This document shows, in pieces, positions 551 to 19,547 of a stretch of DNA of 64,000 nucleotides. This stretch comes from Aeromicrobium sp. Root344 (lineage in GTDB: Bacteria; Actinomycetota; Actinomycetes; Propionibacteriales; Nocardioidaceae): the NCBI RefSeq assembly GCF_001425755.1, contig NZ_LMDH01000001.1, positions 966,474-1,030,473 on the forward strand. The letters are read 5' to 3'. Positions within the stretch are counted from its first letter, which is position 1; every line of letters begins with the position of its first letter. Below the pieces are notes generated by a model that worked only from the letters and a program-made list of their open reading frames with translations, made no database searches and was not told where the DNA came from. The position numbers and the translations under genes are program-made.

Positions 551-601
551 CAAGAGAGCGCTCCATCCGTCTCGCCCACCGATCCGCGCTGAGCGCTCGA
601 T

Positions 602-1615: not shown

Positions 1616-1762
1616 AACCCTCCTTCTCCAGTCCGACTGTTCACTGCCCCGATCCTCCCACGCCGACGACGCGGCGCGGCCGGATGCTGACGATGACCTC
1701 GCGTCGAGGTGGTGTCGGGGAGCTGGCCGCCGCGCTCGATGCGCGCGACGGCCAACCCGTGC

Positions 1763-3154: not shown

Positions 3155-3350
3155 AGTGTGCTCGATTCTGAGAAGCGGCCCACGAAGGAGCCGAAGTTCA
3201 GATCAACGTAGGTATCGACGCACTCGAATCCCATACGCAGATGTGCGTAATCGGGTCTTCGCCGCTCAGGAACTACGTATGTCGACCGATGGTGCACACC
3301 CCGTCGCATTCCTACTGTGACAGGAATCGGTCAAGACGAGGAGTCAGGCG
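3155..3350. promoter_or_regulatory. divergent promoter region with two inverted repeats
   Basis: This 196-bp spacer separates the permease gene from the dimethylformamidase operon and must hold both promoters. Two symmetric elements are visible: TACGCA-gatg-TGCGTA at 3234-3249, and ATTCCT-N8-AGGAAT at 3308-3327, close to the start of the alpha-subunit gene. Either could bind the LuxR-type regulator encoded at the end of the operon. Which one does cannot be told from sequence. Confidence 0.5.
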
Positions 3351-3734
3351 ATGGTGCAGCGCACAACGACGGAGCGGGTGGCCGAGCTGGACGCGGTGTT
3401 CGACCGCCGGTTCAACGCCCGGGTCAGGTCTGATCTGACAAGCGACGTCCTCGACGAGCTACTCCGCAATCCCCTTGGCCCGCACACCGACACGGCGTCG
3501 CGGGTCAGACGCGCTTTGGGCAGCATGACGATCACCGGCAAGCAGCTCATCTTGTCCCTGGGCCCCGACGGCCCGTGGGCGATCGGCGTCGTCACCGTGG
3601 GAGCCCCCGGAAACCTGGTCGTCGACACCGACGCCCATCACAGCTACGAGGACGCCATGCGCGTCATCTTCGCGAATCGCGCTGCACAGTTCGCCGGCCC
3701 GGTCGGCACGGAAGGAACGTCTCATGGGAACTGA
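3351..3734 (+). CDS. dmfA1: N,N-dimethylformamidase alpha (small) subunit
   Basis: A 127-residue protein, close to the ~132-residue small subunit of Paracoccus/Alcaligenes dimethylformamidase, and directly followed by the large subunit gene. It is a soluble basic helical protein (ERVAELDAVFDRRFNARVRS near the N-terminus, RASRVRR-type central region). The ATG is preceded by GAGGAG about 9 bases upstream. The last 11 bases overlap the next gene, suggesting coupled translation and 1:1 assembly. In characterised enzymes this subunit packs against the iron-containing beta chain in an alpha2-beta2 unit. Assignment rests on size, context and general similarity. Confidence 0.8.
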   Translation: MVQRTTTERVAELDAVFDRRFNARVRSDLTSDVLDELLRNPLGPHTDTASRVRRALGSMTITGKQLILSLGPDGPWAIGVVTVGAPGNLVVDTDAHHSYEDAMRVIFANRAAQFAGPVGTEGTSHGN

Positions 3735-6024
3735 CACCGCTGGCCTGTTCGGGTACAGCAACACACTGTCCGGCCGCCCGGGCGAGACCCTCTCGTTCCA
3801 CGTCAGCGCAGAGAACGTCGGAAGCTACCGCGCCGAGCTCGTACGACTGCGCCACGGCTTCACCGGCTCCGCGGGCCCGGGATTCCTCGAGGACTCGGTC
3901 CCGAGCTCGTTCGACGGAGAGTACGCAGGACAGGCTCAGACCTGCCAGCCCGGTTCGTACGTCGAGGTCAAGCATGACGGCAAGCTCGCCGACTGCGCGG
4001 AGACCTCGATCCGGGCGTACATCTATCCCACCCTGCCCCGCAGCGAACGATCCGGGGAGTTCGGCGCCTATCACGTCTCTCAGAACTCGATGGTCAGGGA
4101 CAGTCAGCTCCAGACCGTGCTGAGCACCACGATCGCTGGTGAGATCGGTGGCTATTCGTTGGCTCTCGACGACGGGATCCCGACATTCTCCTGGTTCGCG
4201 GATGGGGCCATCCGGACCCTCACGCTGAATCAGCATCTGCAGGATCATCAGTGGTACCTGCTCGAGGTGACGGCCTCCGCAGCAGAAGGCGCCGTCACGC
4301 TGTCCGCCTCCCCGGTCGCGAACATCATGAACCGCAACGCAGAAGCGACGGCCGGACTCGACAGCGACTTCGCGAGATGCAGCGCGACGCAATTCGAACC
4401 GCGAGTCGGCGACCTCAGGATCGGCTCCTCTGCGCGCCGTGTTGGGAGCCGCCTCCTGGCGTACGAGACGTTCAACGGCAAGATCGGCGGAGTACGGATC
4501 GATCAGTTGGGCGACGAGCCGTCCGGTCAGAGGACACTGGGCGACTGGCACTTCGGTCTCAGTCCGCGATCCGACGGCCTCCTGCTCGACGTCGTGCTGG
4601 ACAAGTCACCGCACGCCTTCCACGGGACATGCGTGAACACGCCCACACGAGGTGTGACGGGACCCCTGTTCCAAGGGTTCGTGACCGACTTCCGGCGAGT
4701 GCCGGACGAGTACGACGCGATCCATTTCCACGACGACGACATCACCGACGCAGACTGGCCGGCCTCGTTCTCCTTCGAGATCCCCGATGGCCTGCCCAGC
4801 GGTGTGTACGCAGCCAAGGTCAGCGCTCCGGGAGCGGAGCAGTACATGCCGTTCTTCGTCCTGCCGTCCGAGCGCAAGAACCGCGTGGCCGTGCTCTTCA
4901 GCACCGCCACCTACCTGGCGTACTCGAACGATCGCATTGCCTTCGAGGCCGACCAGGCCGAGATCATCGTGAGCCACACCCCGATCGTCGATGGTCTCGA
5001 TCTGGCGCTCCAGGACCACCCCGAGTTCGGTCGGTCCTGCTACGAGATCCACAACGACGGCTCCGGTGTCGTGTTCGGAAGCTCGCGCCGGCCGATCCTC
5101 ACGATGCAGCCGACCCACCGTGCGTGGTTCCAGCACGGCGGCGCGTGGGGCCTGCCTGCCGATCTCTGCATCTCGCACTGGCTGGAACACGAATCGATCC
5201 CCTTCGATGCCATCACGGATCACGACCTGGACCGCGAGGGCCACGAGCTGCTAGACGGCTATGACGTCGTCATCACCGGCGCGCACCCCGAGTACGTCAC
5301 CAGAGCCGAGATCGAGTCGATCGACACGTACCTGTCGACTGGCGGGCGACTGATGTATCTCGGAGGCAATGGCTTCTTCGCCACCGCCTCCTTCGACCCC
5401 GAGCAGCCGCACGTCATGGAGCTGAGGCGCGCAGACGGCGGAACCCGTCCCCACCAGTCCCCCTTCGGCGACGCTCGGCACACGACGTCCGGCGAGCAGG
5501 CCGGCCTGTGGCGCAACAAGGGCCTGCCCCCGCAGAAGCTCGTCGGAGTCGGGTTTGCCGCGCAGGGATTCGACCGCTCCACCCACTATGAGCGCCTCGA
5601 GGACAGTCACGACCCGATGGCGGCCTTCGTGTTCGACGGGATCGCGTCCGACGAGCTCATCGGCGGCTTCGGGATCATGGGCGGCGGAGCCGCCGGCGCG
5701 GAGATCGACTGCTACGACCCGTCCTTGGGCACAGCACCCGGAGCGCTGCTCCTGGCGACCTCCGGACCGTTCTCCGACGGGTATCTGCTCGCTGCGGAAG
5801 AGGTGTACGAGACGTTGCCCGGACTCGGAGGGACCGAGAATCCGCGTGTTCGCGCCGACATCGTGCTGTGCCCGATCGAGGGCGGAGGCGCGTACTTCTC
5901 GGTCGGATCCATCGCCTTCTCCGGGTCGCTCTCGTACAACGCCTATGACAACAACGTGGCTCGCATGACCGGGAACGTCCTCCAGCGCTTCCTCCGCAAG
6001 GAACCGATCGACAGCGTGATGTGA
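3724..6024 (+). CDS. dmfA2: N,N-dimethylformamidase beta (large) subunit
   Basis: A 766-residue protein, almost the same length as known dimethylformamidase large chains (~762). The family enzyme hydrolyses N,N-dimethylformamide to dimethylamine and formate with a mononuclear iron held by two tyrosines and a glutamate. Residues in equivalent places are visible: Tyr400 in STATYLAYSND, Tyr440 in SCYEIHNDG, and His521/Glu523 in HPEYV, matching the Tyr399, Tyr440 and Glu521 I recall for the Paracoccus enzyme. The N-terminal ~370 residues are beta-rich and lectin-like; the C-terminal half carries the active site. GGAAGGA precedes the ATG. Its true substrate could be another formamide. Confidence 0.87.
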   Translation: MGTDTAGLFGYSNTLSGRPGETLSFHVSAENVGSYRAELVRLRHGFTGSAGPGFLEDSVPSSFDGEYAGQAQTCQPGSYVEVKHDGKLADCAETSIRAYIYPTLPRSERSGEFGAYHVSQNSMVRDSQLQTVLSTTIAGEIGGYSLALDDGIPTFSWFADGAIRTLTLNQHLQDHQWYLLEVTASAAEGAVTLSASPVANIMNRNAEATAGLDSDFARCSATQFEPRVGDLRIGSSARRVGSRLLAYETFNGKIGGVRIDQLGDEPSGQRTLGDWHFGLSPRSDGLLLDVVLDKSPHAFHGTCVNTPTRGVTGPLFQGFVTDFRRVPDEYDAIHFHDDDITDADWPASFSFEIPDGLPSGVYAAKVSAPGAEQYMPFFVLPSERKNRVAVLFSTATYLAYSNDRIAFEADQAEIIVSHTPIVDGLDLALQDHPEFGRSCYEIHNDGSGVVFGSSRRPILTMQPTHRAWFQHGGAWGLPADLCISHWLEHESIPFDAITDHDLDREGHELLDGYDVVITGAHPEYVTRAEIESIDTYLSTGGRLMYLGGNGFFATASFDPEQPHVMELRRADGGTRPHQSPFGDARHTTSGEQAGLWRNKGLPPQKLVGVGFAAQGFDRSTHYERLEDSHDPMAAFVFDGIASDELIGGFGIMGGGAAGAEIDCYDPSLGTAPGALLLATSGPFSDGYLLAAEEVYETLPGLGGTENPRVRADIVLCPIEGGGAYFSVGSIAFSGSLSYNAYDNNVARMTGNVLQRFLRKEPIDSVM

Positions 6025-6099
6025 CCTTGATTTTACCTGGCAGCAGCGGGGCCGGGAGTAGAGTTGGCACTCTCCCTTCGCGACCCAGAGGTGGCTGTC

Positions 6100-7089
6100 A
6101 TGGACACTCCGAACAGTCGCGTGTTGGTGGAGGCGGCGTTTGCCGCGGGCTCTGCTGACCCGGTCGACGCGGCGGAGTCCGTGCTCTCGATCCTTCGTCC
6201 GGTCACCGGCGATGAGGCCAGCAGCTTGATGATGTGGGACGAGTCGACCCACACCCACATCGCGATCGCCGCCAGCGGCTACGACGACGAGACCCTCAAG
6301 ACGCTCGGCGACGCCTATGCCGGTTCCCTGGCCCACGCCTCCTTGCGCCGGAGTGGACGAGCCACCCGCATCAGCGACATGCCCAAGGACTACCTGGACT
6401 CCGAGATCTACTTCCGGGTCGCGGGGTCTGCCGGATTCGGAGATGGCATGTCCGTCTTCCTGTTCTCGGCTCACCACGAGTACGTGGGCATGTTGCACAT
6501 GTCGGCCGCCGCACCCAACACGTTCGGCGACGAGTCGGCCGAGCTCATCAACAACCTCCGGCCGATCGTGTCCCACCTGTGCAACGCGGTGGCACCACGC
6601 CACGTGATCCTCGCGGCACCCTCCTCCATGCGCGCGAGTCTCATGGACGACGCCGGGCGCGTGTGGCAGATCGAGGACTGTGAACCGTCACGCGTCGCCG
6701 AGTCCGACGGCTTTGCCACCGTCCTTGAACGCTTCCTTCGCTCCCGGCTCTCAAGCACGCAGGGCGTCTGGCCGATCGGCAATGACTGGGTGAGTGTCGA
6801 CCTGACCCGCGCACACCACCCGTTCGACCGGAGCAGATCTGCTGCGATGGTCCGTGAACGGCCCACGGATCAGCTTCTGGGGTTGTCGCCTCGGGAGCTG
6901 GACATCCTCCATGGGATGGCCATGGGCCACAGCAACCAGCAGATCGCCGAGGACCGTTGGATCTCGCCACGCACCGTGACCACGCACGTTGAGCACATCC
7001 TCGAAAAGATGGACCAGCGATCGCGCGCGGGGGCCGTTTCAGCAGCTTCGCGGCTGGGCCTGCTCCGGCTGGACGGCATCGAGGTGTGA
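6100..7089 (+). CDS. LuxR-family regulator with GAF-like sensor domain
   Basis: The chosen ATG gives 329 residues and has GAGGTGG 7 bases upstream; an in-frame TTG at 6064 would add 12 residues and lacks a good site. The N-terminal ~200 residues resemble a GAF-type ligand sensor (ASSLMMWDES, VGMLHMSAA). The C-terminal ~65 residues form a LuxR/FixJ helix-turn-helix (LSPRELDILHGMAMGHSNQQ, then ISPRTVTTHVEHILEKM). It follows dmfA1-dmfA2 on the same strand. A LuxR-type activator, DmfR, accompanies dimethylformamidase genes in Paracoccus, so this gene probably controls the amidase operon. The inducer is unknown. Confidence 0.88.
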   Translation: MDTPNSRVLVEAAFAAGSADPVDAAESVLSILRPVTGDEASSLMMWDESTHTHIAIAASGYDDETLKTLGDAYAGSLAHASLRRSGRATRISDMPKDYLDSEIYFRVAGSAGFGDGMSVFLFSAHHEYVGMLHMSAAAPNTFGDESAELINNLRPIVSHLCNAVAPRHVILAAPSSMRASLMDDAGRVWQIEDCEPSRVAESDGFATVLERFLRSRLSSTQGVWPIGNDWVSVDLTRAHHPFDRSRSAAMVRERPTDQLLGLSPRELDILHGMAMGHSNQQIAEDRWISPRTVTTHVEHILEKMDQRSRAGAVSAASRLGLLRLDGIEV

Positions 7090-7153
7090 TTGACGATCGG
7101 GCGTCGATCGAGTGGGGCGCCGAGGGACGCGGGCCGAACCCTGAGGTCAAATT

Positions 7154-7202
7154 TTCGTTGAGCCGCTTGTCAGAATCGAACTGACGACCTTTTCATTACG
7201 AG
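7154..7202. repeat. attachment site, distal copy (partial tRNA-Thr)
   Basis: These 49 bases are identical to 18526-18574 and run in the same direction. They reproduce the tRNA from the anticodon loop to the 3' end plus a few bases, but no 5' half follows, so this copy is not a functional tRNA. It marks the far end of the element and would have been the chromosome-element junction after insertion. Confidence 0.95.
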
Positions 7203-7361: not shown

Positions 7362-10300
7362 CTAGTGCTCGCCAGGCTTGGTCCCAGTCGCGCAACTGTC
7401 ACAATCGAGTGAAGCCGACGAATTGACATTCCCACAATGCTCGCACGCCCAGTATGCCGCTTGAGCGATGCTACCTTGCCCTAAATTGAGGATTGACAGG
7501 ACAGTCGCGTCATCGCTATTTGCAGCGATCGCCCACTCTTCTGGGTACAAGCTGGACCCGTTCCCGGAAATCCTTAGGAACGTGGCTGCAGCATGACGGA
7601 CATCAGAAGCCTCATTCGTGACTGAGTTCTGCAGCAGGGCGTGGGGATCTTCAACGCAGCACAGTCGTACCAGCATCACGGCCCGCCGGCCTTCGTAGCT
7701 CGAAGCCTGGATTTTCGCCAGCAGTGAAGCAACTTCGGACGACCCCGCATTGCCCAACATCCACGTAGCCGAGGTACGAAGGTTCTCACTGTCTGAGCAC
7801 AAGAACTCAATCAAGGTTGCCGCTTCATCTGGAGTGGGACGGTTCACGGTGAGGTCGTCCGCAACCAGAGGCGGCAGGTCAATTACATCTTTCGCGCTGA
7901 GGAACAAGTCGGAATCGTGGAACAGGAGGCTAGCTTGAGAGGCCACGACTTCGACGTCCAGCCCCAGAACTCGCGCCGACAAGCGTAGCCACGTCGAGAC
8001 CTGACTCAAGGGGAGTTCACGCACATCTCGAATGTCGTCCGCGTACATGGCGGTGAGACCGAGACCAACCAGCAACCGATTGAGTTCTGAAAAGCTCCAG
8101 CGGTGCCGCTGGGAGAGAGTTTCGTGGGGATCGTCAGCGAAGGCCCGGAGCATCCATCCCCATCCATCGAGGTCGTCAATAAACTCACGCAGCCAACCCA
8201 AGTTGGGGAACCATTCGTGCGGGTTTGGGTCCGTCCAGCCTGCCGCCGCGAGGAAGCCGTGCACCTTCCCGTGATCGCCCATTGAGAGCCGGGATGAAAC
8301 CTCATACAGCCTCTCGACGAAATCAGAGTCCACCTCCGCGATCAGTTGTGCCACTCCTACGCAAAGCCGTCCAAACCCCGAGGGAAGCGGAGTACCGGTG
8401 CGAATTTCCAGGTACCTCCGCGAACGACGTACAACGCCACCCTTCTCGGATACAAGCGGGGTGTAGAGAATCTCCCGCATCGCATCGATTGCGTCGGACG
8501 AAATCTGACCAGATACACCGGCGATCCTCTCGGATATCGCCATCAGGGTCCGCGCCATCTTGAGACGGTCATCATCCATGGACATTCGCTCAATCGCGAT
8601 ACGGCGCTGCTCGCAGTTCACGGCGCTAACATCGAGCGAAGCGAGTTCCATCGTGTAGTACGAGCTACCAGCTTTATCCTCCAGTTTTTCGGCGAGGGTC
8701 GCGGTGTTCGCGGACGGCGGCATCTCCTGCTCGGCCGCGCCCGCGAGAATCTCAATCAGTTGACCTTCCCAATCCAGCGATTCCGATCTCTGTTCGACTC
8801 GTATTTCGAGCAATGCATCAATCACCCGTGACCGAGCCGCGAACTGCTCGTCGACAGCAAGCGTGAGCAAACGATCCACAAACTTCGGCACTTCTAGAAC
8901 CGCGAGCAGAAGGGCGTCCTTGAGGGCCGGGTCTCCCGCCGCATTTGCGATCCAAGCGTCAACATCGCTAGCGGACTGTTTGGAAGCCCAAATCGCGTCC
9001 CCGAGTTCACTGAATTGCCTCGAGCGCGCCGACACTAGACCGCCTTCCACCGTGAATACGCTCGCCCGTTCGTCCCAGAATCGGAGCGCCTCACGCGCCA
9101 GTACTTCTGAATGACCGGGAGCCTTTCCCCATCGTGCATTGAAGAGCGAAGCCAGCGCTCCCATCGCCGTTGTTCCATCCAGATCGGAGGTCGTGTTGAG
9201 AAGGTGTCCGATCTCTGCGAACGCCTCTGACAGCATCTCCGGATGCAGGTCTGGATTCCAATTTGTCGGACCGGCCGCCTTGGCCGCCTCCCATAGACTG
9301 ATGTGCTCACGAACGACTTCTCTGAGCAGGGACAACCGACCGATTGGCGCGCCCCCGGGCGCGTTCGTCGCGATTCGTAAAGTCGCTAGAGTCGCCAGCA
9401 ACGGAATTTCCCAGAGATCGCTGTTGCCTTGTCGCATCTCGTCGATCGTCTCGACTCTCTGCGCCAGCCAAGTATCGCGGGGGTCGTCATTCGTGCCGCG
9501 ACATTGGGCTACGTGGGCCAGCAACCCACGACAAAACTCTGGCAGGTACTCCGGCGACTTGAGAGTGACCCTTGGCAGGGCGAGGCTTGAGGCATCGTTG
9601 AGGGCACTAGGGCGACCGGACAGAATCAGTCCGAGGTTCAGCGACGCTTCGCGAAGTACCCTGCCAACGGCGTCGACAATTCTCGAACGATCGCTCAGCG
9701 CTTCGTCCAAGCCGTCCAGAATCAGCGTGACGCGATCCGCAGGGATTCGCTCAAGGAGGGCATCGACGAGCAAGGATTCGTCCTCTTGACCGCGAACATT
9801 CCGAGCTAGCCGGATGAGAGAAGCGATCGTAATGTCGTCGGTTCCCTGGGTCTCGGAAGCTACGCGACGCAGGTCTATGACTATTGGAAGAGGCGCCAAG
9901 GGGTCGATGGCCCATTCCGCCGCTAGTTGAACTAGAGCTGTCGACTTCCCCATGCCCGGCAACCCTTCAATCATGAGGCGAGAGTGCCGTCGAGCCACTG
10001 CGGCGAGCGGAGCGCTATGAGGCCTACGGCCTTCGCCCCACTCGACCGTGAGCTCGGAAGTGGTGTGGGCGCTTTCGATGGGTGGAAGACCCGGACACAA
10101 CCCAGCCAAGGACATCTCCGCAGCAGCGGCGACGAGGCGTTTGCGATATGAATCGACCGCGTCTAGGCGTGCCTTTGCGCGAGCCCCGGCTGAACCGGTT
10201 CGATCTGGAAACACGTCCAACTTCGCTGCAAGCAGATACTCCACCCAATCCTCGAGGCTGCTCGTGCCGCGCCGGGCAGCTTGCACTTGCATGGCTGCCC

Positions 10301-10958
10301 GCAAGGCAGCGAACGCGGCCAGCCCACTGCCACTAGGCACAACCGAGTCTTCCAAGAGTTTGGCGGCGTATGCGGCGTGAAGATCGCCGTCATCCCTCAC
10401 GCGAACCTCGGCCACCCGTGCGTGCTTCACGATCTTCTGCTGTAGGTCGACAGAGAGTCGTGCGAGCCTCTTCTCGAAATCTGACATGGCCTTGAGCTCA
10501 CCTTTTGGCGAGCTCGAACTCTCGCGCGCTTGCGATCGCTGTAATGCTCGATCCAAGAAATTGAGCGTGCCTCTCACCGTGCCCGCAGCGAGCATCAATG
10601 AGTCGCCGTCTTCGACATCTTGGTGTGCCCACTGCGCGACGGTGTCATCTAGAGGGCCCGACATTCCGCATTCCAGCTTCGCTTGAACAAAGAGGGTCGA
10701 TCCATCCGCACATTCACATCGGATGTCGTCTGTCGCATCGCCAGTCTCGAGTCCGATTCGGACCGGCTCGCTCGTTGTCAGCGAGAGGCCAATGCCCCTG
10801 ACAGCTACGCCGGCAAGCCCGTGGCACACCAAGTACGCCGCAACGCCTGCGCGATATTGGCTGCCCGCCTCATTTGCCTGCCCCCCAGCAGAGCCTCGCG
10901 AGTTCACCACCTGAGCATTCTGTATCAAGATCGCTGGACTTAGAGCGTGTAACCGCAA
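7362..10958 (-). CDS. nuclease-NACHT NTPase with C-terminal zinc finger, putative defence protein
   Basis: The 1198-residue protein has four parts. Residues ~30-130 resemble a PD-(D/E)XK nuclease of the Cap4/DUF4297 or Mrr kind: Glu71, Asp77-Asp78-Ile and the QAK at 92-94 give the E-x-D-x-QxK pattern. Residues ~325-560 are a NACHT NTPase: Walker A GLPGMGKS at 332-339, Walker B LILDGLDEA at 412-420, then LILSGRPS. A long helical region includes HEAT-like stretches near 1050-1150. The last 29 residues form W-x-C-x2-C-x3-N-x6-C-x2-C from Trp1170, the RanBP2 zinc-finger spacing. The TTG start has GGAG 8 bases upstream and follows the partner gene by 40 bp. By analogy with bacterial NLR-like (Avs, bNACHT) proteins it probably senses an invader and cleaves DNA. 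Confidence 0.8.
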   Translation of the reverse strand: MRLHALSPAILIQNAQVVNSRGSAGGQANEAGSQYRAGVAAYLVCHGLAGVAVRGIGLSLTTSEPVRIGLETGDATDDIRCECADGSTLFVQAKLECGMSGPLDDTVAQWAHQDVEDGDSLMLAAGTVRGTLNFLDRALQRSQARESSSSPKGELKAMSDFEKRLARLSVDLQQKIVKHARVAEVRVRDDGDLHAAYAAKLLEDSVVPSGSGLAAFAALRAAMQVQAARRGTSSLEDWVEYLLAAKLDVFPDRTGSAGARAKARLDAVDSYRKRLVAAAAEMSLAGLCPGLPPIESAHTTSELTVEWGEGRRPHSAPLAAVARRHSRLMIEGLPGMGKSTALVQLAAEWAIDPLAPLPIVIDLRRVASETQGTDDITIASLIRLARNVRGQEDESLLVDALLERIPADRVTLILDGLDEALSDRSRIVDAVGRVLREASLNLGLILSGRPSALNDASSLALPRVTLKSPEYLPEFCRGLLAHVAQCRGTNDDPRDTWLAQRVETIDEMRQGNSDLWEIPLLATLATLRIATNAPGGAPIGRLSLLREVVREHISLWEAAKAAGPTNWNPDLHPEMLSEAFAEIGHLLNTTSDLDGTTAMGALASLFNARWGKAPGHSEVLAREALRFWDERASVFTVEGGLVSARSRQFSELGDAIWASKQSASDVDAWIANAAGDPALKDALLLAVLEVPKFVDRLLTLAVDEQFAARSRVIDALLEIRVEQRSESLDWEGQLIEILAGAAEQEMPPSANTATLAEKLEDKAGSSYYTMELASLDVSAVNCEQRRIAIERMSMDDDRLKMARTLMAISERIAGVSGQISSDAIDAMREILYTPLVSEKGGVVRRSRRYLEIRTGTPLPSGFGRLCVGVAQLIAEVDSDFVERLYEVSSRLSMGDHGKVHGFLAAAGWTDPNPHEWFPNLGWLREFIDDLDGWGWMLRAFADDPHETLSQRHRWSFSELNRLLVGLGLTAMYADDIRDVRELPLSQVSTWLRLSARVLGLDVEVVASQASLLFHDSDLFLSAKDVIDLPPLVADDLTVNRPTPDEAATLIEFLCSDSENLRTSATWMLGNAGSSEVASLLAKIQASSYEGRRAVMLVRLCCVEDPHALLQNSVTNEASDVRHAAATFLRISGNGSSLYPEEWAIAANSDDATVLSILNLGQGSIAQAAYWACEHCGNVNSSASLDCDSCATGTKPGEH

Positions 10959-10998
10959 TGTCGAGGCTCCGGTCTACGCCGACCGCCAGCTTTGCACC

Positions 10999-13900
10999 TC
11001 AGGAGAGCGAAGAGAGCATCAGCACATTCACGGCGTCGACAAGCCTTGCCGCAGATAGGTCGTTCTCCAGGCCCTGCAGGAAAAGCGAAGCCAGCACGAC
11101 GTCATGGGACCCCTCTATCTCCGCAGCAACCTGCCTAAGCAGGAGGTCGAATGCTGATGTGACCTGCGGCGGGAAGGCGCTCAGAGTCGCTCGACCCTCT
11201 GCCTCGATGTCGGCCAAAGTTGGGAGCGAGTCAGCGATCAGTGGCGGCCAGGTGGGTGGGCGGGACCGGCGTCGACTGGCGTCGTGTGAGAGTTCTACGA
11301 GACTCTGGACAATTCGGGAAATGCGGGTCGTGGTTGCCCCGGCAAGCCGCGTCGCGATGCCCGCTGCTGCAGCGACTTCTTCAATGTCTTCAGGGAGTAG
11401 ATCATGACTCCCCGGTTCCGACTCTGCGGACATGACCGCGGCAATCGGCAAAATGTACGTCTCGCCAGCCTCCGTTGTGGTGGCAGCACCGACCACCCGG
11501 CAACCCAGATCCTCGCGCTCCCCTTTGGACGCCGCCTCCATCGCAGCCTTTAGGACAGGCCAGTGTTCTGCGTCTGTGATGACCAGCCAACCTGCATTGT
11601 CCAGTGCCCACGAATGCGATCTAGGGTCTTCGAATCGATGGACGTGCGCTCCCGGGACCTCCCCAGTGATGCTGGCGATGATCTGAGCTTGACGCCCCTG
11701 CTTGACCTGTGAGACAGCGCTCACGATCTGGTTGCTTGACCCGAGCAGATCGCCTGCCCGAATATGCGACGCAGCAGACGGGTCGAAATGGATGGTCGCC
11801 AGCAGGGCCGCAATGTGCGCCAAGTTCTCGATCAACTCATCCGATATCGGTGCGCCAAGCGCCCCAAAGTGCGGGCTACTCTCGGCTCTAGCGTCTCCGA
11901 GCTCGACGACCGCGTCCCGGATTGACATTGCGGCGACGAGCAGTCTGGGGCCCAGCACTCCCCGCAACGCGTCCGTGGCCTTCAACAGAGCACGCGTCGT
12001 GTCGTCTTCCTTCCGGTCAAACGCGTCAGCACCGGCGTGTGTAACCCCCAATCCCACCCCAGTCGCAGCCGGCCGAGCAAGTTGGTTCGCGCATTCAACA
12101 GCCAGAGCATCCAACTTCGACTGCCAATTGGCCCGTCGATTTGCGTTGTCTCTCGGACTCAATCGCGCCACTGCGGATCCTGCCAACTCGGTCAACATTT
12201 CAGCCGTGGTGATCTGCGCCCGCACAAGCGACGTCCAAGACTGCGCCGCCGTGGACCTGCGCAGCGCCGCCTGAAATCCCACATTCCTGCGTACACCGAC
12301 TCGGTCCGGGAACGCGTCGCGGGCCATTCGTTTATATCCCGGCTCGTGGCCGGCGATTTCGACACGCCTTTGGGAAGCGTCGAGGGTGATGACCTCCACG
12401 ATCTCAGCTTCCGGGCAGGCCGCAGCGAGATTTCTTGCCGCAGCCACGGCGCTATCGTTGATGATGTCAGCAGAGCTACCTTCCATGGACGCGTCCCATG
12501 CCAACTCCAATGGGCTCGTCGGATTCGGCGGCAGAAGGCGGCGCAAACTGACCGTCGATGTCGCGGTTTCGTAGGACACGTAGATGGCATTCGGATCCAT
12601 TTTGGCGACCTGGGTGGCGCGACTTGCTGGCGTGCCGAGAATCGCCTCGACCTGTCCTGCGGCAAGCGATGCGCTGAGCTGCTCGATGAGACGCGACCAA
12701 GGTTCCACGTCCTCAGGGCCCGCCGGCTCGGGGAATCGCTGAAGTATCCAGGCAACGGTTTCAGGCGAAAGGGGGGCGAAACCGTGCGCAGCTTCCAAGA
12801 ATCGCGTGGCTTCAGCCACGTTCTCGGCAGAACCGCCCAAAGCTCGGACCGAGGTGTCGTTCAGCTTCGCGGCGACCTTCTGCGCAGTGGCTGCAGATCG
12901 GTCCGGGAGTTTCGCAGCAACCTTCTTGACCTCACGAAGGCCTTGGTCGAAAGACGGGTCACCAATGGGCTCGAAGGTGAGGCCTTGATTCCTCATGCCG
13001 TACGTGAAGTTTGCCAGGTGGTGGATCGAGAGACCGGCTGGCCGATTGGCGTCCAAGATCGGTATGCATCGTCTGGTGTAAAGCACGTTGTCCGCTCGTT
13101 CGGCACCTTCCAGCAACTCGGCTGCTTGGACAGCTGTTGTGGAGGGCTCCGACATTTTGGCTGCTGCCGCTTCCGCAAGAACTTCCAAACCTTGGGAGTC
13201 GTGCTCTGCCGCGCGCCGGAGCAGCCAACCCGCTTCGTCCGGAGCAAGAGCATCGATCGCTCTAGCGAGTGTCGCTGCCAAAGTTGGCGGCGGAGACTCG
13301 TGAAGGAGGTTCGAAAGGACACGCGAGCGGAGTTCGTGAAGCCCTCTCCAGTTTGCGCCGTCGTTGATGACGATGTGCTCGTCACGAAGTCTGCTAAGTG
13401 CATCTCCCACGGCACCGGGAGCGAATGCTTGCAGGACCATACCGAGTCGATCGGAGTTCATCGCGAGCCCGAGGCTGTGGACCGACGATAGAAGACGCGC
13501 TGCGTCCCGCTCCAATTCCCTTCCTGGCTCGCCGAGCTCTGCCACCTGTTCTGCTAGGACTTCGTTAAGACGTTGACCGGTAATAAGCATGGCTAAGAAC
13601 TCCATGAGCAAACCCTCTGATCGGCCGTGCGCTTCGTCAGGATTCATCTCATGCTCGATCCCCGCAAGGCGGACCCGCTCACCAATGGCTCGCGCAGTCT
13701 GAACATCGATGAGAAGGTCGATGATTTGAGTCGCGCCCTTCGCAAGTGACGGATGGAAGTCCTCAGCGCGGCAGGCCCCAATGAGATACGTCTCGTTGAG
13801 CTCCCGCAAGTAGGTTGCGGCTTGCGGCCATTTCGCCATGCTCGGACGGCCTAAGTTGTCAGCTGCGACCAGCAGCGGCGAGCAAGATGACGGGCGAAGA

Positions 13901-15039
13901 AGTTGAGCGTGCCGGACAAGGAGTCGCACGTCGGAGTCCGTCTCCAAACGAGTAACTCGGAGAACCCTCGCAGCTGGCATTGCATCTCGAGCCGCGCGCC
14001 ACATCATGACGGACTTTCCCGACCCGGAGGGTCCGAGCAGCAATGCCGCGCCGCGGTCATGCAAGCCTTCGACTACTTCACCGAACTCACGCGGCCGAAA
14101 CACGTCGTGACCGGCAGCAACCAAGGCAGGACTGCCATCCATGCCCAGATAGAACTGACGAGCGGGAACATCGGCGGGGTGAATATAGTCCGCCGCGCTA
14201 CAAATGCCGCTAGCGACGGCGATACTCAGGCCTTCGAGATCAACCGCCGATTGAACGCTTTGGACTAGCGCGTCAACATCCCGGACAGAATGACGAACCG
14301 CGTCTGGCAGTGAAGTCCCGCGCTGGGTCGCCGCGCTTTGATCGATGAGGTCATATAGTGCCCCGACAACGAACTGCGCAACCGTCGGATGGACGTCAAA
14401 CGCGGATCCGAGCACCTTCTCTGTCTCTGCTCGAATCTGCCACGGCAGATGGATAAGTCGCGACCGCTGCAAGAGATTGGCTGCGGCGTCGTCATCCAGT
14501 CCACGACTTTTAAGCGCCTTCATCAGATTGTTGACGACATCATCACCCTGGTCGCCGATCACAGCCTCCCAACCGGAAAAGGTCAGGCCCGAGCCGAGAC
14601 CTGCGTCGGTCACAACGGCAATGTAAGCGCTTCCCGCAACAACGTGAGCATGCGTGAGGGCCTCAGCCAGACCGGCTGCCGCAAGTGTCCCCTGTCCCCC
14701 AGCGATCTCCTTCATCTGGACAAAAGTCTTGGACCCATCGACATGCTCGCAGTCAACGTCTTCCATTCCCTCCGGCGTGATCCTCGCGAACGGTAGATCG
14801 CCAGCTCGTGCGCTTATCAGCAGATGCGCGGTTGTCGCGGCCTGCCAAGTAACACCCGCGAAGTTTCGGGCCCCTTGACGAAGGTCCGCCCAAAGTTCGT
14901 CCGGTGTCATCTCAGATCGTGGCTTGCGCTCGACGGATGGGACAGCGGCCCCATCGAGGTCGGAATGGACCGCGATCGTCGGCCTTGTTCTAACGCGGCG
15001 ACGGTCGGTCGCCTGATTGTTCTTCTTTCCACGTGCCAT
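10999..15039 (-). CDS. nuclease-STAND-like NTPase, putative defence protein
   Basis: A 1346-residue protein and the first gene of the two-gene operon. After a basic N-terminus, residues ~55-160 look like a PD-(D/E)XK nuclease: WQAATTAHLL, then PEGMEDVDCEH with acidic residues 90-96, and the QMKE at 108-111. A P-loop follows at 336-343 (GPSGSGKS), with a Walker B-like LLVAADN at 389-395. The remaining ~900 residues are alpha-helical and repetitive in character, as in sensor regions of STAND proteins, without a nameable repeat family. The Walker B lacks the usual acidic pair, so ATP hydrolysis may be slow or replaced by a switch. It shares its architecture, but no obvious close identity, with its downstream partner. 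Function as an anti-phage sensor-effector is inferred. Confidence 0.75.
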   Translation of the reverse strand: MARGKKNNQATDRRRVRTRPTIAVHSDLDGAAVPSVERKPRSEMTPDELWADLRQGARNFAGVTWQAATTAHLLISARAGDLPFARITPEGMEDVDCEHVDGSKTFVQMKEIAGGQGTLAAAGLAEALTHAHVVAGSAYIAVVTDAGLGSGLTFSGWEAVIGDQGDDVVNNLMKALKSRGLDDDAAANLLQRSRLIHLPWQIRAETEKVLGSAFDVHPTVAQFVVGALYDLIDQSAATQRGTSLPDAVRHSVRDVDALVQSVQSAVDLEGLSIAVASGICSAADYIHPADVPARQFYLGMDGSPALVAAGHDVFRPREFGEVVEGLHDRGAALLLGPSGSGKSVMMWRAARDAMPAARVLRVTRLETDSDVRLLVRHAQLLRPSSCSPLLVAADNLGRPSMAKWPQAATYLRELNETYLIGACRAEDFHPSLAKGATQIIDLLIDVQTARAIGERVRLAGIEHEMNPDEAHGRSEGLLMEFLAMLITGQRLNEVLAEQVAELGEPGRELERDAARLLSSVHSLGLAMNSDRLGMVLQAFAPGAVGDALSRLRDEHIVINDGANWRGLHELRSRVLSNLLHESPPPTLAATLARAIDALAPDEAGWLLRRAAEHDSQGLEVLAEAAAAKMSEPSTTAVQAAELLEGAERADNVLYTRRCIPILDANRPAGLSIHHLANFTYGMRNQGLTFEPIGDPSFDQGLREVKKVAAKLPDRSAATAQKVAAKLNDTSVRALGGSAENVAEATRFLEAAHGFAPLSPETVAWILQRFPEPAGPEDVEPWSRLIEQLSASLAAGQVEAILGTPASRATQVAKMDPNAIYVSYETATSTVSLRRLLPPNPTSPLELAWDASMEGSSADIINDSAVAAARNLAAACPEAEIVEVITLDASQRRVEIAGHEPGYKRMARDAFPDRVGVRRNVGFQAALRRSTAAQSWTSLVRAQITTAEMLTELAGSAVARLSPRDNANRRANWQSKLDALAVECANQLARPAATGVGLGVTHAGADAFDRKEDDTTRALLKATDALRGVLGPRLLVAAMSIRDAVVELGDARAESSPHFGALGAPISDELIENLAHIAALLATIHFDPSAASHIRAGDLLGSSNQIVSAVSQVKQGRQAQIIASITGEVPGAHVHRFEDPRSHSWALDNAGWLVITDAEHWPVLKAAMEAASKGEREDLGCRVVGAATTTEAGETYILPIAAVMSAESEPGSHDLLPEDIEEVAAAAGIATRLAGATTTRISRIVQSLVELSHDASRRRSRPPTWPPLIADSLPTLADIEAEGRATLSAFPPQVTSAFDLLLRQVAAEIEGSHDVVLASLFLQGLENDLSAARLVDAVNVLMLSSLS

Positions 15040-15245
15040 TTTGACTCTCGATCAGCGGTCCAACAGTGGGCTCTCGTCGACGCTACGGGGTCGACCGACC
15101 CCGCGCTGCGATCAAGAGTTGAATCTGACATAGCTCGGATTCTCTTCAAACTTGGCAAGCTGAAAGGCTCTCACCCGCCGCAACATCGACACACCTCTTG
15201 CATTCTCGATGTCCCCTTGCGTCCGTACGAAAGGCCTTAAGGGTC
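15040..15245. promoter_or_regulatory. divergent promoter region of the putative defence operon
   Basis: This 206-bp spacer separates the giant-gene operon from the small zinc-finger gene and should hold both promoters. At 15086-15103 there is an inverted repeat with 8-base arms (CGGGGTCG / CGACCCCG) and a 2-base spacer, a plausible operator. No convincing paired -35/-10 boxes can be assigned by eye. Confidence 0.45.
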
Positions 15246-15653
15246 ATGAGTGCAGACAAAGATCGCGAATGGCGCGAGGAGAACAGGCGAGAAGCCGCAG
15301 GAGGAACATGCCCTCGATGCGGTAAAGATGTGCAGCGGAAGGCGACCGGTAGACCGCCAATCTGGTGCTCGCAGGCATGCCGAAGAGCCGCGTACGAGGA
15401 ACGCCGCGCGGCCGCTCAAGGTGCTATCGCCATCGAAGTGGTCGACCGCATGGAGACTCGCGAGCACCCCATCGGAACCTGCGTCGACCGAACGTTGGCC
15501 TCTCCAGCTGGGTGCCGACGCGTGGTCTATGAACTGGCCAGACTAGGCCGCGAGCGCACCTTGCAGTCAGACCCGCGTTGGGAGTCGACTTACAACGCGA
15601 TACGCAACGGACTGATGGACGCCATATACAGGCCGTTTGATCGAGGTCGATAG
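15246..15653 (+). CDS. small zinc-finger protein of unknown function
   Basis: The ATG at 15246 (MSADKDREW) gives 135 residues; an upstream in-frame start at 15198 is less likely because it would run through the divergent promoter. A compact zinc-binding motif lies at residues ~21-50: CPRCGKDVQRK, then PPIWCSQACRRAAYEERR, that is CxxC...CxxxC. The WCSQACRRAAY pattern recurs in small actinobacterial proteins of unknown role. The C-terminal half is helical (GCRRVVYELARLGRE). It is divergent from the giant nuclease-NTPase operon and could be its regulator or an accessory protein. Neither is shown by the sequence. Confidence 0.65.
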   Translation: MSADKDREWREENRREAAGGTCPRCGKDVQRKATGRPPIWCSQACRRAAYEERRAAAQGAIAIEVVDRMETREHPIGTCVDRTLASPAGCRRVVYELARLGRERTLQSDPRWESTYNAIRNGLMDAIYRPFDRGR

Positions 15654-15986
15654 GTCTCCTGATCGACGCGCCGGGCATGGAGCACTTCGCCCAGGATGGG
15701 CCGCGCCAAAGATTGGGTTGGTCGCTTCAATCAGCACGACAATTGGAATTGTCATGGCGTCTGTGCAGTCTGGCGACTCTCCGCAGTTCCAAAGTTCCGA
15801 CGAAGCTTGTCCCGGAGGGTTGGTGTTCGCGGGGTCCATACAGAAAGGTCAGCCGCAGAGCTCAAGCAGTAGTCGGCCAAATTTACGAACTGAACTGTTC
15901 GGCTGATGACTACCTCGCCGGGAGTTGTTCCTCAGACGTTCAGCGAGGTAGCAGAGGCGATTCAGTACGGAACCTCTTGACTTCGT
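15654..15986. other. 333-bp gap without a convincing gene
   Basis: No reading frame here has a good start site or recognisable product; a 50-codon frame from ATG 15754 is weak. The one structural item is a symmetric site, GACAATT-gg-AATTGTC, at 15738-15753. The stretch lies between the 3' ends of the zinc-finger gene and the unknown gene pair, so a terminator would be expected, but no strong hairpin with a T-run is seen. Confidence 0.5.
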
Positions 15987-16466
15987 CTACTGAAAGGTGA
16001 GTTCGTCTTCGTCGGCGCGAGAGTGACGCGCCATCACGTCGAGATCATTCTGCATCCGCTGCAGGTCCGCTTTGAGCCGCAGGATGTAGCGTTTCATGAG
16101 CGACATATAGCCCTCGCTTCCGGCATCGAAGCGATCGAAGGTTTGCACTTTGAAGTCATCGGCGTACGCCAGAGTCACCCAGCGGTGCTTGAAGGCGGAC
16201 TGGACCTCAGCCAGAAGAGCAGTACCTGTCGCGCTGGCGAGTCGCTCGGCTTCCTCCGAGTCGATGGTCGCGTAGATCCAAAGATTCTGTTTATCCTCTT
16301 CGCCGGCGATGCAGTCAAAAAGGACAAGTAGATCGTTTCCGAGATCCCGTTGGCGGAGAATGCCAGTCCGGGGAAAGTTATATCGGTCTAGTTCAAACAC
16401 TAATTCAGAGGTCGCTGAGGGATCCCATGGCGAAGCGTCGCGGTCGATGAATACAAGATCACTCAT
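15987..16466 (-). CDS. hypothetical protein, second gene of an unknown pair
   Basis: The ATG at 16466 has an excellent AGGAGG site and overlaps the upstream gene's stop as ATGA, so I prefer it to the start 7 codons earlier. The 159-residue product is acidic and soluble. It begins MSDLVFIDRDASPW, has a likely alpha/beta N-terminal half (LLVLFDCIAGEEDKQNLWIY) and ends in a long charged helix (YMSLMKRYILRLKADLQRM), possibly a coiled coil. I do not recognise a family. The tight coupling to its partner suggests the two act together, as in toxin-antitoxin or two-gene defence modules. Confidence 0.7.
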   Translation of the reverse strand: MSDLVFIDRDASPWDPSATSELVFELDRYNFPRTGILRQRDLGNDLLVLFDCIAGEEDKQNLWIYATIDSEEAERLASATGTALLAEVQSAFKHRWVTLAYADDFKVQTFDRFDAGSEGYMSLMKRYILRLKADLQRMQNDLDVMARHSRADEDELTFQ

Positions 16467-17020
16467 GGTGCCTCCTCTCGGTGCCATTCACGTTCAGTGA
16501 AGCATGACACAAATAGTTCTTCTGCGATGTGGTCCCACTCGCCGAAGTAGGTGATCGTCACATGGTTTGGATTGAAGTTGTTGGGGGTGTGTTCCACGGT
16601 GAATCCGGATTCCCGAAGCTCGCCGGCGGTGGTCCGTCGCACGCCGTCCTCATGGGTCAGTGGGTGCTTTCCGCGGGTCACTATCAATTGTGCCTCACCT
16701 GGAGAAATCCTCCCTCGAAGCGCTGACAGTTTGTTCTGATCCTTGGGTCGAGGCGCATTGATGTCAGCTCGCCCCACTGAGATCCGTTGAGAGATGACTT
16801 CTTCGTCCGCAATTTCTTCGGGCTCAACCGCCATCTCGGTAGAGTATCGCCGGACGAGATCCGTCGCTGGAGCGTCGAGGACGAGGCCTACCGCTCCAAG
16901 ACAGATGGCCTTCAGATGTTCTGATGAACGGGCCGCACCGTCATCGAACCCACGCGTTCGATCCGTCGGCCAGCTGTCGTCCTGCGAAATCGCGCGAGGA
17001 GCATAGGCCGTCCTGGACAC
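16463..17020 (-). CDS. hypothetical protein, first gene of an unknown pair
   Basis: A 185-residue frame from a GTG at 17020 with only a weak ribosome site; the N-terminus is therefore uncertain. The first third is polar, then a helical stretch (SEHLKAICLGAVGLVLDAP) and a C-terminal part with ELRESGFTVEHTPNNF, NPNHVTITYFGEWD and ELFVSCF. The C-terminal pattern looks like a compact alpha/beta domain, but I cannot name it. Its stop overlaps the next gene's start, so the pair is co-translated. It is divergent from the excisionase-integrase genes across 249 bp. Confidence 0.68.
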   Translation of the reverse strand: MSRTAYAPRAISQDDSWPTDRTRGFDDGAARSSEHLKAICLGAVGLVLDAPATDLVRRYSTEMAVEPEEIADEEVISQRISVGRADINAPRPKDQNKLSALRGRISPGEAQLIVTRGKHPLTHEDGVRRTTAGELRESGFTVEHTPNNFNPNHVTITYFGEWDHIAEELFVSCFTEREWHREEAP

Positions 17021-17269
17021 CGGTCAAATCAATCACCGTCGAGCCAGGGGACGCTTCCTTCCAACGTTCCCCCGAAAGTTGGCCGATTCCTGGCCACTCA
17101 ACCCTGGAACGTGGCCTTGGGGTTTAGCGCCATATCCGCAGGGCGCATGCATGCACCGGGTTCTCCACAGATCGCGATCGAGCAGGTTCGTTCCCACCGC
17201 GACCGCTCGAAACTGGAGGGTCGAGCAGGCTGTCGCGCTCACCAGCGGTGGGAGGAAGGAACGATCGCC

Positions 17270-17449
17270 ATGACAGAACTCAAACTGCTGTCGCCCACCG
17301 AGGTTTCGAAGATCCTCGGCGTCGCGACGTCGACGTTGTGCCGGATGCGGCAGAACGGGACGGGACCACGATGCGTATGGGTCACCGACCACGCGCCTCG
17401 CTATCGCGAGGACGACTTGCTCGCCTACGTCGAATCACGAGCGTCCTGA
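17270..17449 (+). CDS. excisionase-like helix-turn-helix protein
   Basis: A 59-residue protein with a strong GGAGGAAGG site before its ATG. It is almost entirely an AlpA/MerR-like winged helix (LLSPTEVSKILGVATSTLCR, then PRYREDDLLAYVE), the fold used by excisionases and small DNA-binding directors of integrative elements. Its TGA overlaps the integrase ATG by one base, so the two are translated together. Expected role: bending the element ends to steer the recombinase, probably through the repeated GC decamers, which is inference. Confidence 0.85.
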   Translation: MTELKLLSPTEVSKILGVATSTLCRMRQNGTGPRCVWVTDHAPRYREDDLLAYVESRAS

Positions 17450-18525
17450 TGGGGATCCGACAGGACCGGTCTGGCCGGTGGCGTGCTGAGCTCAAGTCTG
17501 GGCGTGAGTACGTCGCCGGTCGGACGTTCGACACCAAGCGGGAGGCCGAAGCCTGGCTGTCGCGTGAGCGCGCGTCGCTGGCGGGTGGTGTCGATCCGCG
17601 GGCCGGCAAAATCTTGGTCAGGAAGGCGTTCGCGACGTGGCTGGTGGATCGCGAGGGCACCGTTGCGATCAAGACGACGAAGGCGGATCGATCAGTTCTC
17701 AAGGCGCTGCCGCCCGGCGTGGCCAATCTTCACGTCAACCGGGTGACCGACCGCGAGGTCCAGCGGTGCATCAACGACTGGTCGCGGCGTTATGCCGAAT
17801 CCACGGTCAAGCGCTACCGAGCGACGCTGATGGCGTTCTTCGCGTCCTGCATCCACGACCGGCTGATCACGGTCAACCCGGTGTCGCGGACCCGGGTGCC
17901 GGCGCAGCTGACGCCGGCTGCCGAGATGATGCCCTTCTCGCGTCAGGAGCTGGAGTCAGTTCGCGACGAGATCGCCGTTCTTAATCCAGCCCTGGCCGAT
18001 GCCGTCTGGCTCGCCGGGTGGACAGGCTTGCGGTGGTCAGAATTGCGCGAGGTGCGGGTGGCCGACTTTATCGAGGTCCCAGTCCCGCGGTTCGTGATCC
18101 GACGTGCCCAGCCAGAAGGCATCGGCACCAAGCGGCCCAAGTCCGGGCGCACCCGCCACGTACCCCTCGTCGACGCCGTCCTGCCACTCGTGAAGTCGAT
18201 GACCGCAGGCAAAGGACCGAACGATCTGTTGGTCACGACCGAGAACGGTGCGCGGCTCTACGCCACCGCGTTCAAGAACTCGACCCACTGGGCCGAGACC
18301 GGACGAGGTCGGCGACTCCACGACCTGCGGCACACCGCCGCATGTCTGTGGCTCGAGGCCGGGGTCTCCCCCACCACCGTCCAGGCTTGGATGGGACACG
18401 CGGATCTGACGACGACCCAGCGATATCTTCACTACCTCGGGACAAGTGCCGACGAGACCGGATTGAGCCGGTTGAACCAGTGGGGGCGCGCCGGGGGCGC
18501 GCGGCCTGCGGGGGAACATCAATAA
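17449..18525 (+). CDS. int: tyrosine recombinase (site-specific integrase)
   Basis: The ATG overlapping the stop of the excisionase-like gene gives 358 residues, usual for actinobacterial element integrases. Residues 1-55 are an arm-binding AP2-like region (RSGRWRAELKSGRE, FDTKREAEAWL), ~57-150 the SAM-like core-binding domain, and ~160-345 the catalytic domain. The catalytic set is complete: Arg195 in GLRWSELR, His291-x-x-Arg294 in HDLRH, His317 in MGHADL and Tyr326 in TTTQRYLHY. The gene reads into the tRNA-Thr attachment site one base away, the classic arrangement. It should catalyse integration and, with the excisionase, excision. Confidence 0.95.
   Translation: MGIRQDRSGRWRAELKSGREYVAGRTFDTKREAEAWLSRERASLAGGVDPRAGKILVRKAFATWLVDREGTVAIKTTKADRSVLKALPPGVANLHVNRVTDREVQRCINDWSRRYAESTVKRYRATLMAFFASCIHDRLITVNPVSRTRVPAQLTPAAEMMPFSRQELESVRDEIAVLNPALADAVWLAGWTGLRWSELREVRVADFIEVPVPRFVIRRAQPEGIGTKRPKSGRTRHVPLVDAVLPLVKSMTAGKGPNDLLVTTENGARLYATAFKNSTHWAETGRGRRLHDLRHTAACLWLEAGVSPTTVQAWMGHADLTTTQRYLHYLGTSADETGLSRLNQWGRAGGARPAGEHQ
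18480..18502. repeat. 23-bp end repeat, right copy (tandem GC decamer)
   Basis: Identical to 7272-7294 and in the same orientation, with two GGGGGCGCGC units one base apart. This copy sits inside the last codons of the integrase gene, 24 bp from the right attachment repeat. Its presence in coding sequence at one end and non-coding sequence at the other argues for a DNA-binding role rather than a coding one. Confidence 0.8.
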
Positions 18526-18574
18526 TTCGTTGAGCCGCTTGTCAGAATCGAACTGACGACCTTTTCATTACGAG
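18526..18574. repeat. attachment site, tRNA-proximal copy
   Basis: The 49-bp direct repeat identical to 7154-7202. It covers the tRNA-Thr gene from the anticodon loop through the 3' end and seven bases beyond, so insertion regenerated a complete tRNA on this side. Crossover probably occurs in the anticodon-loop part, as with many tyrosine recombinases. Confidence 0.95.
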
Positions 18575-18605
18575 TGAAACGCTCTACCGACTGAGCTAAA
18601 GCGGC
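18533..18605 (-). tRNA. tRNA-Thr (anticodon CGT)
   Basis: On the minus strand the sequence starts GCCGCTT and ends AAGCGGC plus a T discriminator, giving a 7-bp acceptor stem. D-arm (TAGCTCAGTCGGTAGAGC), anticodon stem TTTCA/TGAAA with loop CTCGTAA, and T-arm with GTTCGATTC are all present; length is 73. The loop reads CGT, which decodes ACG threonine. The CCA end is not encoded. Its 3' half is the integration target of the neighbouring element. Confidence 0.95.
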
Positions 18606-18688
18606 CGAGGTTCGCCGGGGATCGCCCGCCGAACCGATCACTGATACTACCGGGTGATCGCGACGACATCACATCGGCCTCTCCCCCG

Positions 18689-18694
18689 TAGAAT
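18689..18694 (+). promoter_or_regulatory. -10 box of a probable leaderless promoter
   Basis: TAGAAT ends 7 bases before the GTG of the chorismate mutase gene, and no ribosome site is present. A TANNNT box at this distance places transcription start at the start codon, as in actinobacterial leaderless mRNAs. Confidence 0.6.
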
Positions 18695-18701
18695 CGCACT
18701 C

Positions 18702-18992
18702 GTGACCGACACCACGCAGGCCGAGCTCGAGGAGATCCGCGCGAGCATCGACAACATCGATGCCGCGCTGATCCATGTCCTGGCCGAGCGCTTCAAGTAC
18801 ACCAAGCGCGTCGGCAAGCTCAAGGCCGAGCACGACCTGCCGCCGGCCGATCCCGAGCGTGAGGCGCGCCAGATCACCCGCCTGCGCGCCCTGGCGGTCG
18901 AGGCCGACCTGGACCCGGCATTCGCGGAGAAGTTCCTCAACTTCATCATCGACGAGGTCATCCACCACCACGAAGCAGTCCGGCAGCCCTAG
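18702..18992 (+). CDS. chorismate mutase, AroQ type
   Basis: The GTG at 18702 gives 96 residues of an all-helical AroQ-class chorismate mutase. Typical features are ELEEIRASIDNIDAALIHVL at the N-terminus, ERFKYTKRVGKLKAEH with the active-site Arg/Lys region, DPEREARQITRLRALA and FAEKFLNFIIDEVIHHHE. The enzyme converts chorismate to prephenate for phenylalanine and tyrosine synthesis in the cytoplasm. In actinomycetes such small mutases may be activated by DAHP synthase. An in-frame start further upstream (18654) would lie across the likely promoter and is rejected. Confidence 0.92.
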   Translation: MTDTTQAELEEIRASIDNIDAALIHVLAERFKYTKRVGKLKAEHDLPPADPEREARQITRLRALAVEADLDPAFAEKFLNFIIDEVIHHHEAVRQP

Positions 18993-19013
18993 CCTCTGGC
19001 TGAACGGCGGGTC

Positions 19014-19019
19014 TAGGGT
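19014..19019 (+). promoter_or_regulatory. -10 box of a probable leaderless promoter
   Basis: TAGGGT ends exactly 6 bases before the ATG of the DUF937 gene; there is no purine-rich ribosome site. This is the expected geometry for a transcript starting at the A of ATG. Confidence 0.5.
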
Positions 19020-19025
19020 GCGGGC

Positions 19026-19544: not shown

Positions 19545-19547
19545 GAC

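Follow-up and report, generated by a model that had tools for sequence, protein, structure and literature searches.

The window analysed here, a stretch of 64,000 bp from Aeromicrobium sp. Root344 (contig NZ_LMDH01000001.1, positions 966,474 to 1,030,473), contains an 11.37-kb integrative element (unit 11,372 bp) in a tRNA-Thr gene, which carries two large genes, here called A and B, as cargo. We conclude that A and B are probably two self-sufficient single-gene nuclease-STAND defence modules of the Avs/bNACHT-like kind, lying next to each other on one element. An earlier note on this DNA, made from the sequence alone, had described two adjacent co-directional genes, 40 bp apart, for proteins of 1346 and 1198 residues, and the open reading frame (ORF) coordinates bear this out: both ORFs are intact, and the 40 bp separate the stop codon of A from the start codon of B. 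The start of B may be lower, near 10910 (GTG), since the relatives aligned to B begin with MSS-GGQANEAGS; the gap would then be about 88 bp. All further long ORFs in the element fall within A or B, either antisense or out of frame.

Both proteins had been proposed to share one plan, namely a nuclease, a STAND or NACHT NTPase and a long C-terminal region, and our analysis supports this. Single-sequence structure models of A and B reached a predicted local distance difference test score (pLDDT) of 41.9 and 37.2, respectively, which is too poor for reading a fold, so we base the nuclease assignment on the matches of profiles and on residue conservation. The motif E-G-x-E-D94...Q108-x-K110 of A appears in its relatives as P-E-G-x-(E/D)-D94...Q108-x-K110, and D94, Q108 and K110 are invariant in all 13 aligned rows (window included). 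When compared with solved structures, the A-family profile matched LmuA (expectation value (E) 5.4e-5) and AbpA (E 0.012), with the D, Q and K residues aligned. The equivalent residues of AbpA are D45, Q58 and K60, and the Q58A or K60A exchange abolishes defence, according to an excerpt of the report (PMC10732053). Pfam Cap4_nuclease (PF14130) was matched by three of the 13 aligned A relatives (best 4e-6) and not by the window's A itself, and models of LmuA and DUF4297 matched the nuclease of a distant relative. Based on the family profile and the relatives' matches, we assign to A a Cap4-type nuclease domain with the D..(E/Q)-x-K signature. A is a member of a Cap4/LmuA-type nuclease-nSTAND5 family.

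In B, the corresponding motif is D77-D78...Q92-x-K94, where D77, D78 and K94 are invariant in the six aligned rows and Q92 is retained in three; the acidic/QxK motifs pointed out earlier are thus present in both proteins. The B nuclease profile matched the A nuclease profile with an E value of 1.8e-8 in a single pairwise profile-profile comparison, in which three column-shuffled controls gave 0.38-0.64 and two unrelated domains gave 0.16 and 0.74. From the invariant residues and this match we consider B to carry an N-terminal nuclease effector. It counts against this assignment that the B profile matched no solved nuclease in the comparison with solved structures and that the structure model of B was of such low quality.

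The NTPase of B was matched by Pfam NACHT (PF05729; E 7.2e-7) above the curated cut-off, and NACHT was matched at E ≤ 0.01 in all six aligned members of the B family. The match of A to nSTAND_NTPase5 (E 1.2e-5) is below the curated cut-off. Walker A is intact in both proteins, as previously stated. The Walker B of A had been read as AADN, correctly, and said to lack the acidic pair, which is an overstatement: D394 is kept in 13 of 13 rows and only the following position varies (D in nine, N in two, G in one and S in one), N being present in the window's A and in an Arthrobacter relative. We therefore rejected a loss of Walker B in A, as a variation at one position does not make a dead motif, and with it fails the catalytic argument that one partner is a switch and the other the main ATPase. 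Still, the N beside D394 may affect hydrolysis in A. In profile-profile comparisons, the two NTPase halves align with each other (E 8.1e-6), and the C-terminal parts do not (E 0.42). A and B are thus distantly related in the effector half and the switch half, and their C-termini show no relation. We regard the domain reading as more than chance because of the Pfam matches to NACHT in B and nSTAND_NTPase5 in A and because of near-full-length homologues of A, which were found in five other genomes or plasmids with 37-44% identity over 1089-1455 aligned positions. Relatives of B are 24-29% identical overall.

The two genes were found together only in their own genome. Among 342 genomes of the window's order, A was present in seven and B in six, with an overlap of this one genome; two of the six B matches were a fragment and an NTPase-only match. 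An A profile returned the same seven genomes of the order, and two of 396 genomes at the level of the phylum, whereas a B family profile returned four of 197 genomes of the window's family (own genome included in both cases). The uninterrupted members of the A family are about 1280-1460 residues long. They come from genomes of the order to which the window belongs and from plasmids of Arthrobacter (one) and of alphaproteobacteria, with distant relatives on a Pseudanabaena and a Hymenobacter plasmid. Pattern scans of genome contigs for A and B confirmed no relative. A phage origin was rejected, as there was no match in phage records and no confirmed relative in viral contigs.

The neighbourhoods of the relatives gave the same picture. 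Fourteen of the 15 other A-like loci have no P-loop ORF of at least 700 residues (motif [AG]xxxxGK[ST]) within 500 bp, and the remaining one has a STAND gene. Two of six other B-like loci have a large P-loop ORF within this distance, both divergent and neither a relative of A; these counts exclude two short B matches, L035 (an ORF of 208 residues) and L036 (matching in the NTPase only), and one of four near-identical Agrobacterium plasmid matches was opened. No relative of A was present in any opened B locus, and none of B in any opened A locus. The earlier note had proposed a two-gene defence system, whose genes should co-occur across genomes; they overlap in one genome, and each stands mostly alone elsewhere, the outcome that the note itself had named as speaking against its proposal. 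A conserved A-B operon was accordingly rejected, the overlap being confined to the own genome and the neighbours of the other loci lacking the partner.

Without the motif filter, convergent helicases appeared near A-like genes in L028 (103 bp) and L041 (114 bp), and in the B-like locus L008 an ORF of 999 residues lies 486 bp from the B-like gene, in the same orientation. The DEAD/Helicase_C_2 helicases of L027 (2031-4574) and L028 (6442-9042) are related (38% identical); the one in L028 is the convergent gene at 103 bp, and the other is separated from its A homologue by 4 kb. In a comparison of neighbouring ORFs, no accessory gene was common to more than two A-like loci. Apart from A or B and the ORFs within them, the shared neighbours were one pair each of helicases (two of 16 A loci), IS21 helpers and conjugation proteins, an HNH ORF (Ruegeria and Marinovum), integrases and one non-adjacent ORF pair in B loci; among ORFs of at least 900 residues, one neighbour pair was shared, the NACHT proteins of L005 and L010, which are alike in their NACHT part. 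From this comparison, we rejected the idea that A or B belongs to a larger system of several genes. As to defence context, BREX genes (BrxC/PglX) lie 1.5 kb from one A homologue, and Avs2 lies 3 kb from another A relative in Caulobacter, where the Avs2 models match the neighbour.

The element itself is an integrative element in a tRNA gene, as seen from its integrase, its direct repeats of the attachment site (att) and an empty site (Table 1). In the congener G195 the site is exactly empty, that is, the flanks meet at a single copy of the 49 bp; these flanks correspond to positions 1735-7202 of the window with 92% identity and to 18526-20500 with 89% identity. The mobile island assumed in the earlier note is therefore confirmed. 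In 2-kb windows, the GC content was 59-62% over 8001-18000, as compared with 63-67% at 1-6000 and 65-74% at 18001-64000. With its empty site, the element is a small and clean carrier of nuclease-STAND genes.

Table 1 Features of the integrative element and predicted domains of the A and B proteins (positions of the window unless given as residues)
Feature	Position	Strand	Details
Gene A	10999..15039	-	ATG start, 1346 residues; nuclease, STAND NTPase and long C-terminal region
A nuclease	residues about 50-160		Cap4/LmuA-type PD-(D/E)XK; D94, Q108, K110
A NTPase	residues 321-431		nSTAND5 type; Walker A 336-343, Walker B D394
Gene B	7362..10958	-	TTG start, 1198 residues; nuclease, NACHT, HEAT-like stretch and zinc ribbon
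B nuclease	D77, D78, K94		divergent PD-(D/E)XK
B NTPase	residues 328-455		NACHT; canonical Walker B DGLDE
B HEAT-like stretch	residues 1040-1093		HEAT_2 E 4.6e-6, just below cut-off
B zinc ribbon	residues 1169-1190 (7389-7454)		RanBP-like, E 0.004, weak, below cut-off
Tyrosine integrase	17248..18525	+	Phage_integrase E 2.1e-18
tRNA-Thr (CGT)	18532..18605	-	integration target
att copy within 3' half of tRNA-Thr	18526..18574		49-bp exact repeat
att copy at far end of element	7154..7202		49-bp exact repeat
Small Cys-rich ORF	15198..15653	+	divergent from A; no Pfam match
Small ORF upstream of A	15987..16487	-	no Pfam match
Small ORF	16463..17020	-	overlaps ORF 15987..16487; no Pfam match; true start probably internal

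Related integrases were found at the same tRNA-Thr in other congeners, the DNA of 17063-20308 being 90.9% identical in G185 and that of 17063-18983 being 93.5% identical in G244. Next to these integrases, the DNA of the Cys-rich ORF (15201-15648) recurs with 83% (G185) and 81% (G244) identity, and this ORF is apparently part of the element backbone. Between and beyond the integrase and the Cys-rich ORF, both elements carry other DNA. In G185, a second att copy is found at a distance of about 67 kb. The G244 element has a PADLOC PDC-S06 gene (E 5.9e-268) between the integrase and the Cys-rich ORF, and its far end falls outside the data because the contig stops shortly beyond. Since related integrases sit at the same tRNA beside differing genes, this suggests an exchange of cargo at one tRNA, with part of the cargo being candidate defence genes. 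Of these related-integrase loci (L078/L079 and L080), the one with the PDC-S06 gene also has a DEDDh exonuclease-like gene beside the integrase. The overlapping small ORFs at 15987-17020, between the integrase and A, could form a small cargo module of their own. Outside the element, a DMFA2_C-type (dimethylformamidase-like) gene (3724-6024) adjoins a GAF-LuxR regulator (6064-7089).

For the function of A and B, bNACHT25 provides a precedent: according to PMC12169576, this lone PD-(D/E)XK-NACHT protein protects E. coli and degrades DNA, for which its nuclease is required. Together with the BREX and Avs2 neighbours of A relatives, this leads us to read A and B as DNA-degrading STAND sensors. The C-terminal region of each protein would recognise a separate trigger, which is probably a molecule derived from a phage or a plasmid. 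ATP binding at the STAND domain would then lead to oligomerisation, and the clustered N-terminal Cap4/AbpA-type nucleases would degrade double-stranded DNA, so that the invader would be stopped or the cell killed. We infer the anti-phage function, the oligomerisation, DNA as the target and a co-transcription of A and B. In B, the terminal zinc ribbon is a possible ligand reader; its C-x2-C...C-x2-C pattern stands at the very end of the protein and is retained in four of six family members. This ribbon also weakly matches fingers of TAB2, NPL4 and ZRANB2 (profile E 0.02-0.3).

Several observations weigh against the reading as separate modules. The tight spacing on one strand also fits an operon with cooperating products, and no terminator-like site was found between A and B in a promoter/terminator scan, in which shuffled sequences on average gave more sites than the DNA itself. 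The genome searches scored two to three candidates per genome in an even draw from the larger groups. Two of the 15 A-like genes (L002 and L006) are cut short beside IS21 and may have lost their original neighbours. Both large P-loop neighbours of B-like genes are STAND-like or AAA proteins (NACHT in L010, AAA_22 in L008). On plasmid pMaD1 of Marinovum algicola (L005 7926-16227), the end of an A-like gene overlaps an HNH-NACHT-NCAB2 gene; no other tandem of an A-like and a NACHT gene on one strand was found besides that of the window. As an alternative, we considered that A and B are a functional sensor-helper pair, with sensing by one protein and amplification or execution by the other, as in paired plant NLRs. 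The Marinovum tandem and the 40-bp arrangement would fit such a pair, the homologous nuclease-NTPase halves could mix in one oligomer, and non-aligning C-termini are what different roles would predict. Also in line with it is a Gemmobacter locus in which a nuclease-STAND and a NACHT gene face each other. However, A and B do not co-occur elsewhere in the genomes searched, and the Walker B of A is not degenerate as had been claimed. Moreover, the HNH-NACHT relatives of the Marinovum partner on other plasmids were examined in five loci out of 245 records besides Marinovum and Ruegeria (247 records matched, mostly partial, nine with at least 80% cover, Marinovum among them), and none of the five has a large P-loop gene within a distance of 500 bp. 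A Ruegeria relative of the Marinovum A-like gene (87% identical) retains only the HNH part of the partner. The tandems of the window and of Marinovum thus seem to combine modules that are mostly found singly. Since each gene is usually found without the other elsewhere, separate defences travelling together are more likely than a matched pair, and a sensor-helper pair seems unlikely. Were the tandem to function as such a pair, NLR pairing could be studied in a bacterial example. In Gemmobacter fulvus, the locus mentioned above lies on plasmid p3 (L010 1921-10908), where a full-length PDC-M54A gene stands head to head with the NACHT gene, whose product weakly matches LmuA and PDC-M54A at its N-terminus.

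A broader version of this idea is that mobile elements combine tandem nuclease-STAND proteins with homologous nuclease-NTPase halves and unrelated sensors into mixed immune complexes, a counterpart of NLR pairs with exchangeable partners. It draws on the Cap4-nSTAND5 plus nuclease-NACHT tandem of the window, the Cap4-nSTAND5 plus HNH-NACHT tandem of Marinovum and, as a third case, the head-to-head arrangement in Gemmobacter of a nuclease-STAND protein and a NACHT protein whose N-terminus resembles LmuA; we consider it quite unlikely. The genes could instead guard the element, acting mainly against competing plasmids and integrative elements or as addiction-like cargo rather than against phages. 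Relatives do lie beside mobility genes (type IV secretion in L002, XerD-like in L005, an integrase in L007 and in L032, TraG-type in L034), and plasmids are restricted by Lamassu, a system that can employ a nuclease domain of the Cap4 kind, according to PMC10586767. The plasmid carriage of relatives was not counted in favour of this explanation because the collection searched consists of plasmids only. The BREX and Avs2 neighbours point to phage defence, and anti-phage genes are just as commonly carried on mobile elements, which makes element guarding very unlikely. Finally, STAND proteins also include transcription regulators, so A and B might be large ATPases with a non-defence function, for example regulators. 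This is extremely unlikely in view of the conserved nuclease residues, the sporadic distribution and the Pfam matches, which include no DNA-binding output domain. We thus retain two separate single-gene defences as our preferred interpretation.

The likeness to Cap4/LmuA/AbpA nucleases and to plans of the bNACHT/Avs type that had been noted before is supported by the comparison with known systems. The nuclease half of A aligns to LmuA and AbpA at D..Q-x-K, whereas in A it is fused to a STAND NTPase. Neither A nor B has a SAVED domain among Pfam matches at E ≤ 1, and no CD-NTase was found among the element ORFs scanned (E ≤ 0.01; smaller ORFs fell outside the scan), which separates them from Cap4 of CBASS. 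Likewise, the ORFs scanned include no LmuB SMC-like partner, which a Lamassu system would have, and no AbpB-like helicase was found with A. At E ≤ 1, the window's A matched no model of PADLOC 2.0.0, and the Avs models of PADLOC matched neither A nor B, even though Avs (AVAST) proteins have the same order of an N-terminal effector, a STAND NTPase and a long repeat sensor. Residues 19-401 of B matched PDC-M54A (E 9.4e-10), a PADLOC candidate named as a part of a multi-gene system, with the rest of B unmatched; the PDC-M54B model found nothing in the own genome, but neither did any of the 14 controls of this search, which makes the result uninformative. Closest in plan to B are bNACHT25 and bNACHT32 (clade 6), which combine PD-(D/E)XK, NACHT and a C-terminal sensor in one protein in the part of PMC12169576 available. 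The likeness is one of plan, and B differs in ending with a RanBP-like zinc ribbon. Of the NACHT-associated C-terminal domains (NCH1, SNaCT, NCAB), none was among the Pfam matches of B at E ≤ 1, NCAB2 being the only one whose model was confirmed in the library. Paired plant NLRs are encoded by two adjacent NLR-like genes. A and B are likewise adjacent NLR-like genes, but without conserved pairing in the genomes examined. Among the papers listed for paired or tandem bacterial NLR/STAND systems, the titles and abstract openings named no system of two STAND proteins. LypABC (CARD-NLR-like; PMC13236601) is a bacterial system of several genes with an NLR-like ATPase at its core; it joins one such ATPase (LypB) to a peptidase-type partner and an endonuclease, whereas A and B are two nuclease-STAND proteins.

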